A stretch of 10,753 nt of DNA from Candidatus Fermentibacterales bacterium (lineage in GTDB: Bacteria; Fermentibacterota; Fermentibacteria; Fermentibacterales; JAFGKQ01): contig JAFGKQ010000030.1 of the NCBI GenBank assembly GCA_016928495.1, positions 1-10,753 of the forward strand, in the 5' to 3' direction. A program made the translations under genes and the position numbers. Under the pieces are notes generated by a model. The model saw only the letters and a list, made by a program, of their open reading frames with translations. It did no database searches and had not been told where the DNA came from. Positions 5,375 through 10,753 of the stretch are shown one piece after another; the stretch's first letter is position 1; each line of letters begins with the position of its first letter.

Positions 5375-7807
5375 TTACGCGGGCCCGTCGGCGCCGTCGA
5401 CCATGGAGTCGATGATCCTCGCCGCCTCGATGGCGTCCGCAGCGTAGAGAGCGCCTATTCCCGCTGCGTACTCCCCGGTTACGACCGCTCCTCCCACGAT
5501 GATCCGCGGAAGGGGCTCGGAGGCTCTCTCCCTTATGTGCTCGACCGTCTGACGCATGGACACGAGGCTCGGGGTCAACAGCGCGCTGAGCCCCAGGACC
5601 AGGGGCCGCTCGGTCTCTATCGCCTCGACTATGGCATCCCTGGGCACGTTCTTGCCGAGATCCACCACCCTGTAGCCATGACCTGCGAGGACCGTCCTTA
5701 TGATGTTCTTGCCTATGTCGTGGACATCGCCCTCCACCGTCGCCAGCAGGACGGTCCCCCTGTCAGCGGCGGGCGAGGCGCCCGGCATCGCTGACCTTAT
5801 CGCATCGAAGGCAGCCTGTACCGCGTTCGCCGAGGCCATGAGCTGTGGCAGGAACACCTCCCCGCGCTCGTACCAGTCGCCCACCTGACGGATGGTCGGT
5901 ATGAGCACACGGTCCACCAGCTCCATCGGCCCGGTATCCGCCAGGGCGCTGGCAACCGCCTTCTCGATCTCCTCCGTGCTGCCCTGGAGGATGAGATCGG
6001 ACAGCCGGGGCTCATCCTCCGTTCCGGAGGCCGCCTGCTCTTCGAGCTCCGGAGAGGGGGGCAGCCCGGCATGGACCGAGACGAACCTGACCGCGTCCGC
6101 ATCGCGTCCGGCCATGATCTCCGCTGCGCGGATCTCGTGCATGAGATCCGAGTCCAGGGGATCGAGTATGGCCGCGTCCAGGCCTTCCCGGATCGCCATG
6201 GCCAGGAAGGTCCGGTTGAGCAGCCCCCGGGCGGGAAGGCCGAAGGAGACATTGCTCAGGCCCATCACCGTCGGCAGCCCGTAGACCCGCCCGACATCCC
6301 TTATGACCTCCAGGGTAGCGCAGGAAGCTGACTGGCTCGACGCCAGGGGCAGGACGACGGGATCCACGAGCACCATCCCGCCAGGGAGCCCCGCCCGGTC
6401 GGCAGCGGCCAGTATCCGCTCGAGGATGGACAAGCGCTCTGCAGGCGTCTCCCGCACGCCCCGCTCATCCATGAGCAGCGCGACTATTCCGGCACCGAAC
6501 CTCACTGCAAGATCCAGGAGCATCTCGAGCCTTCCGGGCTCTCCGCTCACCGAGTTGAGCACGGGGCTCCCGGCATGCTCCCGAAGACCGGACTCCATGA
6601 CGGAGGGGAAGGGCGAGTCGATGAAGACCGGAGAGTCCACGGAGTTCCCGAGGCGCCTCAGGGTGCTGACCATCAGCCTCGACTCGGCCTCCTCGTCACC
6701 TATGCCCAGGTTGATGTCGAGTGCTCCGGCTCCGGCCTCGACCTGCCTGGACGCCAGCTTCCTGACCCTCGAGACGCGGCCCCGGAGCAGCTCCTCCCGA
6801 AGCCTCTTCCTCCCCGAGGGGTTTATCCTCTCTCCGACGGGCACGAAGGGCAGTCCGGCTCCGATGCTGACGCAGGTCGTCCTGGAGGCGGTCCGGAAGA
6901 CCCGCTGCTTCCTCTCCCGGGATCCGACGGGCATCCCCTCTACTGCCCTGCGGATCTCCCGCGTGTGCTCGGGGGTCGAGCCGCAGCAGCTGCCCACTAT
7001 CGCGGCGCCGCTCTCGACGAAGCGGACGGCGAGATCAGCCAACTCTCCGGGAAGGGCCGGGAAGACCGCAAGACCGTCGCGAAGCTCCGGCAGCCCCGCA
7101 TTGGGCTGTACCGAGAACGGAACGGAGCAGTGACACCCCAACTGCTTCGCCACTCCGGACATTGCCTCCAGGGACCCGCCGCAGTTGCTGCCGATCGCGT
7201 CCGGCCTCATGGCCTCGGCCGCTATCACGAAGGCTTCCACCGGGGTCCCGGTCACGCTCCTCTGGCCCGAGTCGAAGCTCATCTGCAGGAGAAGCGGCAC
7301 CGCCGGGGCTTCCCGCCTGGCGGCGAGAGCGGCGGCTCTGAGCTCCCTCAGGTCGGTCATTGTCTCGACCGCTATCAGGTCCACGCCCTCACGGGCGAGC
7401 AGCGAGCAGACCTTCGCGAACGAGTCCACCGCCTCATCCCACTCGATGCTGCCGAAGGGCAGCATGAAGCTGCCGAGGGGCCCTACCGATCCTGCGACCA
7501 GGGTGCCCTCTCTCTCACGGGCAGCCTCCCTCGCCGCGCTGACGGCTCTCGCCACGATCTCTTCCTGACGACCTTCCAGGCCGTATTCGCTGAGCTTCAG
7601 TGCGCCCGCGCCGAAGGTGTTGGTCGTGATCATCTCGGCTCCGGCAGACACGTAGTCTCGATGGACGTCCCTCACGAGCCCGTAGTCCGTCAGCAGAAGC
7701 TCCTCCGGAAGGGCGGGAGAAGCGCACCGCCCGGCCAGGACAGTGCCCATGGCACCGTCCGAGACCAGGACGCTTCCCCGCGACAGCCTGCTCAGGAACG
7801 CTTCCAA
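5375..7807 (-). CDS. metH: Cobalamin-dependent methionine synthase lacking the reactivation domain
   Basis: The 810-residue protein has the first modules of MetH in order. The homocysteine S-methyltransferase barrel (about 8-290) has zinc ligands C209 (GSNCGG) and C274/C275 (GSCCGSTPEH). The pterin-binding barrel (about 318-570) has GERINPSGRK (325-334), DINLG (364-368) and GLSNVSFGLP (516-525). The helical cobalamin cap (about 600-675) is followed by the B12-binding domain (about 683-805), with DVHDIG (694-699) carrying the cobalt ligand H696, and VGGAVVTG (771-778). It would transfer methyl from 5-methyl-THF through cobalamin to homocysteine. It stops right after the B12 domain, whereas E. 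coli MetH (about 1,227 residues) continues with an AdoMet-binding reactivation domain. That function is supplied by the gene just upstream, which this one overlaps by 16 bases. The start is TTG (7807-7805) behind a GGGGGTGG-like site, so initiation probably depends on coupling. No in-frame ATG or GTG lies near. Confidence 0.93.
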   Translation of the reverse strand: MEAFLSRLSRGSVLVSDGAMGTVLAGRCASPALPEELLLTDYGLVRDVHRDYVSAGAEMITTNTFGAGALKLSEYGLEGRQEEIVARAVSAAREAAREREGTLVAGSVGPLGSFMLPFGSIEWDEAVDSFAKVCSLLAREGVDLIAVETMTDLRELRAAALAARREAPAVPLLLQMSFDSGQRSVTGTPVEAFVIAAEAMRPDAIGSNCGGSLEAMSGVAKQLGCHCSVPFSVQPNAGLPELRDGLAVFPALPGELADLAVRFVESGAAIVGSCCGSTPEHTREIRRAVEGMPVGSRERKQRVFRTASRTTCVSIGAGLPFVPVGERINPSGRKRLREELLRGRVSRVRKLASRQVEAGAGALDINLGIGDEEAESRLMVSTLRRLGNSVDSPVFIDSPFPSVMESGLREHAGSPVLNSVSGEPGRLEMLLDLAVRFGAGIVALLMDERGVRETPAERLSILERILAAADRAGLPGGMVLVDPVVLPLASSQSASCATLEVIRDVGRVYGLPTVMGLSNVSFGLPARGLLNRTFLAMAIREGLDAAILDPLDSDLMHEIRAAEIMAGRDADAVRFVSVHAGLPPSPELEEQAASGTEDEPRLSDLILQGSTEEIEKAVASALADTGPMELVDRVLIPTIRQVGDWYERGEVFLPQLMASANAVQAAFDAIRSAMPGASPAADRGTVLLATVEGDVHDIGKNIIRTVLAGHGYRVVDLGKNVPRDAIVEAIETERPLVLGLSALLTPSLVSMRQTVEHIRERASEPLPRIIVGGAVVTGEYAAGIGALYAADAIEAARIIDSMVDGADGPA

Positions 7808-8394
7808 CCCACCACCCCCGATATGGACTTCCTCGGCACCATGGTGCTGCCGGCCAGAGAGACACCGACAGCCTCACCCAGGTTCTCGACGAACCAGGCC
7901 TGGCTCTCGAGGCCGAAGTCGCCGTAGCCCGGGCTGAAGCGCGGCGTGACGCGACAGCCGGAGAGCCGTGCCCGCTGACCCAGCGCTCTGCTCACCCATC
8001 TCGCCGTCGCTTCGGCAGCCTCAGAGCCTATCGCATCGGTTACGACCTGTCGATGGGGCAGGCCCGACTGCCGCTCTATCAGCTCGTCTATCTCCGGACC
8101 CACGGTAAGCAGGAACAGGGATGCCGACTCGCAGCGGCCGAGAAGACTGGCGAGGTTCTCGCTGCGGGCCTCGAGGCCGTCCAGGCGGCACACCCCTTCC
8201 GCCACGGTCACCTCGCAGGTGGTGAGCCAGGCGGCCCTGGGAGCGAGCAAGCGCTCCACCTCTACGATCTCCTGCCTGACCGTGCCCAGGAGGGAGAGAG
8301 AGCGCGAATCGCCCCCGAGCCTCCTCACGATACCGAGGGGATCCAGCTCTATCGAGACCTCCTCACATATCGAGCATCTCTTCGACGATCTCAT
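7792..8394 (-). CDS. Stand-alone methionine synthase reactivation (AdoMet-binding) protein
   Basis: The 200-residue protein matches the MetH activation-domain family. It has LLTVGPEID (95-103), DAIGSEAAEA (120-129), the hallmark RFSPGYGDF (152-160, equivalent to the R-x-x-PGY AdoMet-binding motif of E. coli MetH), and a C-terminal MVPRKSISGVVG (185-196). In MetH this module binds S-adenosylmethionine and re-methylates cobalamin that has oxidised to cob(II)alamin. Here it is a separate polypeptide next to a MetH that lacks it, as in Thermotoga maritima TM0268/TM0269. It starts at ATG 8394, seven bases after GAGG, and overlaps the reductase fusion by 32 bases and the metH-like gene by 16. The first 12-14 residues, with two Cys, precede the domain proper. 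A perfect GAGGAGG follows the upstream stop, but only an in-frame ATA (residue 15) is suitably spaced, so I keep ATG. The electron donor needed for reduction is not in the window. Confidence 0.9.
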   Translation of the reverse strand: MRSSKRCSICEEVSIELDPLGIVRRLGGDSRSLSLLGTVRQEIVEVERLLAPRAAWLTTCEVTVAEGVCRLDGLEARSENLASLLGRCESASLFLLTVGPEIDELIERQSGLPHRQVVTDAIGSEAAEATARWVSRALGQRARLSGCRVTPRFSPGYGDFGLESQAWFVENLGEAVGVSLAGSTMVPRKSISGVVGWKRS

Positions 8395-10204
8395 ATCTCC
8401 GCCTCGGAGGGATGATGCAGACCCCGCTGACGCCGATGGCCCGCAGGCGCTCGAGCAGCTCGCGAGCGAGACGGATCCCGACCTTCTCCTCGGCCCTCTC
8501 GGGCTCGAGCCCGGGCTCCAGGCTCGTGGCCTCTGCCATCCTCTGCAGCATCGTATCGGGGATCTCTATGCCGGGCACCTCGTGCCTGAAGTACTCGAGG
8601 CTCGACATGCTCGTCAGCGGCATGAGGCTGGCCACTACCGGGACACCGAGTCCCCGCAGCCTCTCGTGGAAGCGCTCGAAGCTCTCCGCGTCGAACACCG
8701 GCTGAGTCTGCACGAACGCGACGCCGTGCGAGATTTTGTCTGCGACGGTCTCGATCTCACGGTCCTGGTCGGCGGGCGATGACGGGCATCCCCCGCCGAT
8801 GAAGAACCCTGTGCTCGCGTTCAGCCTGTTTCCGAGAATGTCGCGACCCCTGTTGAGGCTATCGATTATCCTTATCAGGCCCGAGGACCTGACGTCGTAC
8901 ACTGCCGTAGCGAAGGGATAGTCCCCGAGGCTGGGCGGGTCCCCGGAGAGCGCGAGCACGTTGTGGAGGTCCATGGCGGAGTAACCGAGGAGATCGGACT
9001 GTATGGCCAGCAGGTTCTTGTCCCTGCAGGTCACGTGGAGTATCACCTCGAGGTTCAGGCTCCTCCGGATCAGCTCCGCAATAGCCACCGGGGACATGCG
9101 GAGTCTTGCCATGGGGCTGTCCGAGACATTGACGGCATCCACCCCGAGGCCCTTGAGCCTTCTGAGGCCCGCAAGGGCCTTCTCCGCGCCGGGACCTCTC
9201 GGCGGGTCCACTTCGACGCTGATCACGAGCTTGCGCCCGAGCATCTGCCTGAGCGTAGTCTCGACCTCCTGCCTGGCGCGCTCCTCCTCGTCTCGACCGG
9301 CCGCCTCGACTCTCACGAGCTTCCTCCCGGCCGGGCGCATGCCCTCGGTATTGGAGCGTATCTGCCTCACGTGCTCCGGCGTGGTGCCGCAGCACCCGCC
9401 GATGCAGGCGCAACCCGCTTCGACCAGCTTCCTGGCATAACGGCCCAGGTACTCCGGGTTGTGGGGGTAGACGAAGCGGCCGTGCGCGAACCGGGCTACC
9501 CCTGCGTTCGGCATCGCCAGAAGGGGCTTGGTGGTCACCTGGCCGATCCTGTTGATCACTCTCAGCACGTCACGCGGGCCGGTCCCGCAGTTGGCCCCCA
9601 CGATCTCCGTGCCGAGCTGATCCATGAGGCCGCCCGCCACCTGGGCATCCATGCCGGTAAGGGTCGCGCCGGCCTCCGGGAAGGTCATGCAGGCGGCCGC
9701 AGACAGCCCTTCGAAACGGGAGACGACCCTGGCAGCGGCCTGCAGCTCCTCGATCCTCGAGAAGGTCTCGAACACGATGAAGTCCACTCCCCCGCCGACC
9801 AGTGCCTCTATCTGCTCGTGGTAGACGGACTCCATCTGCTCGACTGGAATCTCCCCGAAGACCTCGGCAGGGCGCGACAGCGGGCCGACCGAGCCTGCCA
9901 CGGCGCGGCCCCCTGCGGCGCTGCGGGCTATGATCGCTCCCTCGCAGTTGATGTCCGGGGTCCTGTCGCCAAGGTCGTAGTACCTGTCCAGGATGATCCT
10001 GTTGGCTCCGAACGTATTGGTCGTCAGGACGTGGGCCCCGGCCCCCGCATAGTCCTCCAGAACGGAGCGAACGATCGAAGGGTCGGACAGGTTCAGCTCG
10101 TCGTAGCAGTGACCGCGGGGGACGCCCCGCTCGTAGAGCATGGTCCCCATGGCCCCGTCGAAGACCACCACCCCATGCCTCTCGAGAAGCTCGGTCAGCG
10201 TCAT
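8363..10204 (-). CDS. Homocysteine S-methyltransferase / methylenetetrahydrofolate reductase fusion
   Basis: The 613-residue two-domain enzyme resembles B. subtilis YitJ. Residues 3-290 are a homocysteine methyltransferase barrel with FDGAMGTML (15-23), TTNTFGAN (61-68), zinc ligand C206 in GANCGTGP, and C271/C272 in GGCCGTTPEH. A linker of about 30 residues, rich in Glu/Arg, leads to a MetF-type FAD reductase (about 322-613). That half shows EVDPP (331-335, with the likely catalytic Glu), HVTCRDKN (390-397), ALSGDPP (418-424) and FVQTQPVFD (497-505). The reductase makes 5-methyl-THF, the methyl donor for the MetH-like protein two genes downstream. The role of the methyltransferase half is uncertain, since MetH carries its own. 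No B12 or pterin domain is present. It is the first gene of the operon. ATG 10204 follows GAGAGG by 11 bases, a moderate site. The stop codon lies inside the activation gene. Confidence 0.92.
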   Translation of the reverse strand: MTLTELLERHGVVVFDGAMGTMLYERGVPRGHCYDELNLSDPSIVRSVLEDYAGAGAHVLTTNTFGANRIILDRYYDLGDRTPDINCEGAIIARSAAGGRAVAGSVGPLSRPAEVFGEIPVEQMESVYHEQIEALVGGGVDFIVFETFSRIEELQAAARVVSRFEGLSAAACMTFPEAGATLTGMDAQVAGGLMDQLGTEIVGANCGTGPRDVLRVINRIGQVTTKPLLAMPNAGVARFAHGRFVYPHNPEYLGRYARKLVEAGCACIGGCCGTTPEHVRQIRSNTEGMRPAGRKLVRVEAAGRDEEERARQEVETTLRQMLGRKLVISVEVDPPRGPGAEKALAGLRRLKGLGVDAVNVSDSPMARLRMSPVAIAELIRRSLNLEVILHVTCRDKNLLAIQSDLLGYSAMDLHNVLALSGDPPSLGDYPFATAVYDVRSSGLIRIIDSLNRGRDILGNRLNASTGFFIGGGCPSSPADQDREIETVADKISHGVAFVQTQPVFDAESFERFHERLRGLGVPVVASLMPLTSMSSLEYFRHEVPGIEIPDTMLQRMAEATSLEPGLEPERAEEKVGIRLARELLERLRAIGVSGVCIIPPRRRYEIVEEMLDM

Positions 10205-10232
10205 GCGATCATCCGCCTCTCAGTCGCCGGAT

Positions 10233-10251
10233 CGCTGCCCGGGCGGCAGCG
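10233..10251 (-). promoter_or_regulatory. Hairpin in the methionine-operon leader
   Basis: Seven-base arms (10233-10239 and 10245-10251, CGCTGCC with GGCAGCG) enclose a 5-base loop between the terminator T-tract and the operon's ribosome site. It lies about 28 bases before ATG 10204. It may shape access to the ribosome or compete with leader sequences: GGCAGC also occurs inside the short ORF, so it could pair with the CGCTGCC arm. The role is inferred from position only. Confidence 0.35.
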
Positions 10252-10254
10252 CCG

Positions 10255-10285
10255 AAAAACAAAAGGGGGCGGCCGGGCCGCCCCC
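10255..10285 (-). terminator. Intrinsic terminator upstream of the methionine operon (possible attenuator)
   Basis: On the minus strand a perfect 9-bp GC stem (arms 10277-10285 and 10265-10273, loop of three) is followed directly by TTTTGTTTTT (10264-10255). This is a classic rho-independent terminator. It ends transcripts coming from the partial gene at the right edge or from the short leader ORF. Only 50 bases separate its T-tract from ATG 10204, and no -35/-10-like pair lies between. Transcripts reaching the methionine operon therefore probably read through it, which makes a regulated attenuator plausible. Confidence 0.85.
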
Positions 10286-10308
10286 ACCTGCTCACCTGGT
10301 GAAAGCGG

Positions 10309-10383
10309 CTATGTGCTGCCGGGCATCGCCATGGCGCAGGCCGTTCCCGAGCCTGCGGCGGAGCCGTTCAATGCTGACTGCAT
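10309..10383 (-). CDS. Short ORF, candidate leader peptide of the methionine operon
   Basis: A 24-codon ORF starts at ATG 10383, seven bases after a strong Shine-Dalgarno (GGAGGGAG, 10398-10391), and stops at TAG 10309. That is 23 bases before the terminator stem. The peptide is small and Ala/Gly/Ser-rich, and its last third reads CAMAMPGST: one Cys and two Met codons shortly before the stop, three Met in all. This layout (strong start, codons for the pathway product, then a terminator ahead of the biosynthetic operon) resembles ribosome-mediated attenuation leaders such as those of the trp or his operons. A leader of this kind for methionine would be unusual. It may instead be a chance ORF or encode an unrelated small protein; no family is recognised. 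Confidence 0.4.
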   Translation of the reverse strand: MQSALNGSAAGSGTACAMAMPGST

Positions 10384-10422
10384 GTCTCTGCTCCCTCCAT
10401 GGCTGGCCGCTTCGATCGCCCG

Positions 10423-10450
10423 ACAATAAGGAATCGCAGCCTCCCCGCAA
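10423..10450 (-). promoter_or_regulatory. Weak candidate promoter of the methionine leader
   Basis: On the minus strand TTGCGG (10450-10445) and TATTGT (10428-10423) are 16 bases apart, just past the stop of the right-edge gene. This is the most AT-rich part of the leader. Transcription would begin near 10416, giving a leader of about 210 bases that carries the short ORF and the terminator. Both boxes match consensus only partly. Confidence 0.3.
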
Positions 10451-10465
10451 AGAGCCGCCGGAAGC

Positions 10466-10753
10466 CTACCTCAGGACGACCAGCGGCGCGATCGCGCTCA
10501 CTCCCGGCCCCCGGAGCCTCAAGAAGTAGATGCCGTCGGGAACCTGTGCACCCCGGGCATCGGTGAGGTCCCAGATGGCTGTCTGCGAGCCGATGCCGGC
10601 GTCGCCGTCGACGAGCGTGCGGACGATCCGGCCGCAGAGATCGTAGACCTCTACGGCAACGCCGTGCTCATCCCCCGGAGCCACGATGAAGGGCAGGCTG
10701 ACCGCGATCCGGCAGGGGTTCGGCACGGGAGAGCCCATGCCGGTGACCCAGAC
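10466..10753 (-). CDS. C-terminal end of a secreted protein with FlgD-like / sorting-type tail (partial)
   Basis: The frame is open to the window edge, so the true start lies beyond 10753; the ATG at 10738 is internal. The visible 95 residues hold one module. It starts with a GSPVPNPCRI linker, typical of the PNP motif before such tails. It continues with VYDLCGRIVRTLVDGDAG, WDLTDARGAQVPDGIYFLRL (key residues W, D, G, P, G, Y) and a short hydrophobic end VLR. This is the pattern of FlgD Ig-like and type-A C-terminal secretion domains found on exported proteins in FCB lineages. It says the missing body is probably extracellular or surface-bound, but not what it does. The stop TAG at 10468-10466 is followed by the methionine-operon leader. 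Confidence 0.8.
   Translation of the reverse strand, partial: VWVTGMGSPVPNPCRIAVSLPFIVAPGDEHGVAVEVYDLCGRIVRTLVDGDAGIGSQTAIWDLTDARGAQVPDGIYFLRLRGPGVSAIAPLVVLR

Follow-up and report, generated by a model that had tools for sequence, protein, structure and literature searches.

Methionine genes are mostly reported to be under the control of SAM riboswitches, T-boxes or repressor proteins. The attenuators of the trp, his, thr and leu/ilv operons combine a short ORF preceded by a Shine-Dalgarno (SD) sequence, critical codons near the end of that ORF, and mutually exclusive antiterminator and terminator structures, the antiterminator strand being masked once the ribosome reaches the stop codon. Methionine feedback on the met operon of the Gram-negative bacterium Xanthomonas campestris acts outside the promoter; this operon (metA-metB-hom) is governed mainly at translation initiation, and weak transcription attenuation has also been suggested (PMC6230763). 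In Actinobacteria, cysteine leader peptides are encoded by short ORFs with sulphur-amino-acid codons ahead of sulphur operons (PMC1262725). No methionine-codon leader peptide was found in the literature searched, which covered few subscription papers, and the same search returned no description of a leader-peptide attenuator reading Met codons in the lineage considered here.

We analyzed a leader region in a window of 10,753 nucleotides (the whole stretch of DNA under study), which is contig C92 of a draft genome in 337 contigs of a Candidatus Fermentibacterales bacterium. Tentatively, and at somewhat less than even confidence, we propose on the basis of modeled structures that this region is a lineage-specific ribosome-mediated transcription attenuator placed before a methionine-synthesis operon. 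It shares with the trp, his, thr and leu/ilv attenuators the short SD-preceded ORF, the critical codons near its end, the exclusive antiterminator and terminator, and, in silico, the masking of the antiterminator strand when the ribosome has arrived at the stop codon. Unlike those leaders, it has no run of critical codons but two Met codons set apart and a single Cys codon, its strand competing with the antiterminator precedes the ORF instead of lying inside it, and no conservation was seen across 42 genomes of the order. SAM riboswitches (SAM-I, SAM-II, SAM-I/IV) likewise control methionine and SAM genes, but this leader contains no SAM aptamer. The locus resembles the X. campestris met operon in its long 5'UTR (PMC6230763), and it resembles the actinobacterial cysteine leaders in that codons for sulphur amino acids occur in a short ORF ahead of a sulphur operon, whereas in those leaders the Cys codons form runs close to the stop, and the leaders are conserved between species and have no terminator hairpins (PMC1262725).

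The methionine operon and its upstream region

The leader region comprises the 261 bases between an upstream FlgD_ig-domain gene and the operon start codon, ATG 10204. The surrounding genes are as follows.

Stop at 10466, (-) strand: upstream gene with a FlgD_ig-like domain at its end (Pfam E 1.9e-5, just under the cut-off)
8363..10204, (-) strand: first operon gene, homocysteine S-methyltransferase fused to methylenetetrahydrofolate reductase (MTHFR; PF02574, E 2.6e-60; PF02219, E 7.4e-35)
7792..8394, (-) strand: second operon gene, MetH-activation-like candidate without a Pfam match, named from its position
5375..7807, (-) strand: third operon gene, B12-dependent methionine synthase with S-methyl transfer, pterin-binding and B12-binding domains

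From its position, the second gene probably encodes a MetH-activation type protein. No Cys_Met_Meta_PP enzyme (metB/metC/metY type) exceeded the Pfam cut-off anywhere in the 81%-complete genome (G000), and the operon may therefore recycle homocysteine rather than serve complete methionine synthesis.

The leader ORF and its terminator

Three elements described in the initial annotation were recovered within the leader, namely a 24-codon ORF with an excellent Shine-Dalgarno sequence, a strong intrinsic terminator 23 bases past that ORF, and a further hairpin before the operon start.

10309..10383, (-) strand: 24-codon ORF MQSALNGSAAGSGTACAMAMPGST, with SD GGAGG at 10398-10394 and stop TAG at 10311-10309
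10255..10285, (-) strand: intrinsic terminator whose stem joins 10285-10277 to 10273-10265 through 9 G-C pairs and leads into TTTTGTTTTT
10233..10251, (-) strand: second hairpin between the terminator and the start codon, without a T-run (-13.6 kcal/mol)

The end of the ORF had been called rich in Met and Cys. Its last nine codons do hold two Met (10332-10330 and 10326-10324) and one Cys, although these are separated and form no run; at least two Met in the last eight codons would be expected with P 0.013 under the codon usage of the genome. In codon usage the ORF as a whole scores lower than 99.9% of real-gene segments of matching length, and no homologue was found among the 42 genomes of the order. 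A longer, 52-codon frame (10450-10292, (-) strand), which opens before the 24-codon ORF and stops 6 nt before the terminator, was rejected as having no Pfam match, no homologue and a low coding score.

The terminator, whose core is calculated at -20.3 kcal/mol, lies 60 nt upstream of the operon start and is one of the top four intergenic terminators by strength in the 545 kb of the genome that were analyzed (80 contigs plus the window). Across these 545 kb and parts of two relatives, clear gene-end terminators begin 17-29 nt past the stop codon (loci L188, L206, L167, L186, L157, L234, L229, L239 and L246), with own-genome distances of 22, 25, 22, 22 and 23 nt, a rule of the order that should be useful for annotation. 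The terminator in the window begins 23 nt past the 24-codon ORF but 180 nt past the upstream gene. Its placement at the usual gene-end distance supports a translated ORF, whereas the codon usage given above speaks against one.

As the main alternative, the same structure could, with a probability that we regard as appreciable though on the low side, be the ordinary intrinsic terminator of the FlgD_ig-domain gene or of a small intergenic transcription unit; the ORF and the alternative hairpins would then be coincidental in G+C-rich DNA, and the operon would be expressed from an unrecognized promoter or by leaky readthrough. Consistent with this explanation, a same-strand gene ends 180 nt upstream without a terminator of its own, elsewhere in the genome there are strong gene-end terminators beyond which another gene on the same strand begins within as little as 44-56 nt, and the codon usage of the ORF resembles that of non-coding sequence. 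The stable core is also of the gene-end type, given that terminators at 5' positions reportedly have a lower stability than those at 3' ends (PMC2965389). Against it stands the distance rule itself, under which a terminator of the upstream gene would start 17-29 nt, not 180 nt, past the stop codon.

Promoters

A promoter model of the order, learned by expectation-maximization on 290 upstream regions, converged on a TTGAC(C/A)-N17-TATATT-like sequence with a spacer sharply set at 17 bases. The best candidate ahead of the leader is listed here.

10423..10450, (-) strand: promoter-like sequence TTGCGG-N16-TATTGT (score 4.0)

Transcription starting from this sequence at about 10416 would begin just before helix P1, described below. 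Of 1000 shuffled versions of the region, 485 scored as high, so its score is not above chance and the weak promoter of the initial annotation was not borne out; it is possible that the leader is reached by readthrough from the upstream gene. The accompanying claim that no promoter-like element lies between the terminator and ATG 10204 held, with a best model score of -0.27 in that interval. This result weighs against an ordinary gene-end terminator, since in two comparable cases promoter-like sequences of the next gene (scores 5.1 and 4.8) begin within the T-tract.

In a further reading, the segment at about 10416-10255 would be a short gene or small RNA in its own right, with a terminator of its own and no relation to operon control. 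The normal gene-end distance between the ORF stop and the terminator would suit such a unit; the lack of any homologue of the ORF or the RNA, the lack of a promoter above chance and a codon usage unlike that of genes make it quite improbable.

Alternative pairings and a proposed attenuation mechanism

Folding of the single available sequence yields an antiterminator of the kind that the initial annotation had sought, in which 10309-10298 pairs with 10288-10277 over 12 pairs, together with a long-range helix, P1, that competes for the same strand.

10298..10309, (-) strand: antiterminator 5' strand GCCGCUUUCACC, pairing with 10288-10277; positions 10309-10303 also form the 3' strand of P1
10277..10288, (-) strand: antiterminator 3' strand GGUGGGGGCGGC, overlapping the 5' arm of the terminator
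10406..10412, (-) strand: helix P1, 7 bp, 5' strand AAGCGGC, pairing with 10309-10303
10328..10403, (-) strand: branched domain with two hairpins, GCCATGG 10403-10397 pairing with CCATGGC 10334-10328 (minimum-free-energy folds of the single sequence)

In these folds the antiterminator is mutually exclusive with both the terminator and P1. In nascent RNA extending to 10276, the antiterminator (-67.4) is better than P1 (-57.4) by 10 kcal/mol, and in the finished RNA the combination of terminator and P1 (-79.5) is favored over the antiterminator (-75.3). A ribosome modeled at the stop codon (10311-10309) masks the antiterminator strand almost exactly and blocks its pairing, and with a ribosome stalled on either Met codon the antiterminator becomes the preferred nascent fold; the two Met codons and the Cys codon sit at positions from which a stalled ribosome would not obstruct the antiterminator. 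Sequence and folding show the ORF and the terminator as well as the exclusive pairings and how all of these are arranged, and this geometry is a good fit to a classic attenuator, as a prediction for a single genome.

A ligand-binding (riboswitch-like) or protein-binding leader, with the ORF incidental, would make different use of these pairings: a ligand would stabilize P1 of the branched domain (10412-10303), sequestering the antiterminator strand and causing termination. P1, the antiterminator and the terminator do follow one another in riboswitch-like order, the P1-closed domain (10299-10413) folds better than shuffled sequences (z -2.86; 3 of 500 shuffles fold equally well), and riboswitches of the cobalamin and SAM-II types are in use in the lineage. 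We nevertheless consider such a leader unlikely, as P1 is the weaker partner by the 10 kcal/mol given above in nascent RNA and there is no second copy in this genome or the order, whereas known riboswitch classes are usually common to relatives. Nor did any Rfam family match the leader at its gathering score, cobalamin and SAM-I riboswitches and T-boxes included, and none of relevance appeared up to E 10, in agreement with the earlier report that no SAM-I, SAH or cobalamin riboswitch motifs were found.

For the attenuator, we infer transcription of the leader, translation of the ORF with stalling at its Met codons, and methionine as the signal. Transcription would run through the 24-codon ORF and reach the terminator. 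With charged Met-tRNA plentiful, the ribosome would proceed to the stop codon at 10311-10309 and cover 10309-10298, so that the terminator (10285-10265) would form and the operon would be off. With Met-tRNA scarce, the ribosome would stall at the Met codons at 10332-10330 or 10326-10324; the antiterminator (10309-10298 with 10288-10277) could then form before the 3' arm of the terminator is made, and the polymerase would read through. The attenuation leader suggested initially thus gains an antiterminator and a ribosome geometry that fit, and loses ground in being unconserved among the 42 genomes and in having no detectable promoter. Because the element is unconserved as far as testable, has a promoter candidate at chance level and contains few Met codons, we classify it as a candidate and not as a member of the attenuators. 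The fuller proposition, that an uncultured lineage places B12-dependent methionine synthase and MTHFR under a Met-codon ribosome-mediated attenuator and has metK under a SAM-II riboswitch as well, is one that we hold as possible but doubtful; if true, the classic leader-peptide mechanism, by reading Met codons, would also serve methionine.

Frequency of the arrangement in shuffled sequences

The energy of the antiterminator duplex by itself is not unusual, being reached in 28% of shuffles, and was dropped as evidence. Combinations of features are rarer. A three-state switch, in which a segment far upstream such as P1 can also pair with the antiterminator strand, was formed by 2.1% of shuffles; of 11 ordinary terminators none had one, though two had eight local antiterminator-type pairs. 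An SD-preceded ORF of at least 15 codons with its end 21-25 nt ahead of the terminator was found in 0.3% of dinucleotide shuffles; an SD-preceded ORF ending 17-29 nt before it was found in 1.4%, and in 0.12% when a local antiterminator was also present. An SD-preceded ORF together with an antiterminator strand lying under the terminating ribosome occurred in 5 of 12,000 shuffles (0.04%), by a criterion that was set after the element had been seen. The rarity of this joint geometry of ORF and antiterminator speaks against an ordinary gene-end terminator, with the reservation that these figures overstate the case by an unknown factor, since the criteria were chosen with the element in view.

Comparison with relatives

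The comparison set consisted of 42 genomes of the order, in which the genome of the window is the sole representative of its family; the closest homologues of the first operon protein share 56-59% identity. Neither a DNA search nor a single-sequence covariance model (R1) found a homologue of the leader in these genomes or elsewhere in its own, the covariance model recovering only the window itself. The best DNA match covers 26 nt of G008:C28 within a TldD-like coding gene and was rejected, as was a covariance match in G018:C83 (E 0.019), which falls within the coding sequence of a repeat protein. Lack of conservation in relatives, which the initial annotation had named first among the findings that would refute the leader, is thus what was observed as far as testable, with neither the ORF nor the terminator kept in the 42 genomes, where the nearest homologue of the first operon protein is 59% identical.

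In the three nearest relatives (G002, G006 and G008), the same operon stands behind a short, simple promoter, TTGCG(G/C)-N17-CATAAA, near the start codon, without a leader or an intervening terminator; the -10 element ends 66-80 bases ahead of the first aligned residues, and in G006 the terminator of the preceding gene lies upstream of the operon promoter. The arrangement differs again in another family of the order, where an epimerase-like gene stands immediately before the operon. When 20 relatives of the operon in other phyla were scanned with Rfam, tRNAs alone were found. This lack of conservation in the order is as expected of an ordinary terminator. For the proposed attenuator, the absence of a second copy means that the element is either new in the lineage or not functional, and the distance of the relatives precludes a firmer statement.

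RNA-mediated control elsewhere in the lineage

Cobalamin riboswitches are numerous in the order. The one in the genome of the window (L263, G000:C267, reverse strand) lies behind the consensus promoter TTGACC-N17-TATTCT, and no intrinsic terminator was obvious by eye in its leader, which suggests translational control; premature termination is therefore not otherwise seen in this genome, a point against the proposed attenuator. The metK gene of the same genome (G000:C305) has a SAM-II-like aptamer ahead of it (L286 2684-2744, (-) strand; E 2.2e-6, 41.2 bits where the cut-off is 44), itself preceded by TTGACA-N17-CATATC, and this aptamer is likely to be a genuine SAM-II riboswitch just under the threshold. 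Together, the cobalamin riboswitches and the metK aptamer indicate that control of methionine genes by RNA is normal here, by other means than the one proposed for the leader. SAM_alpha-type matches occur in 22 of the 42 genomes of the order, most of them below the cut-off, and one relative carries a SAM-I/IV riboswitch (49.7 bits; L143 2330-2432, (+) strand; about 40329-40431 of G011:C16).
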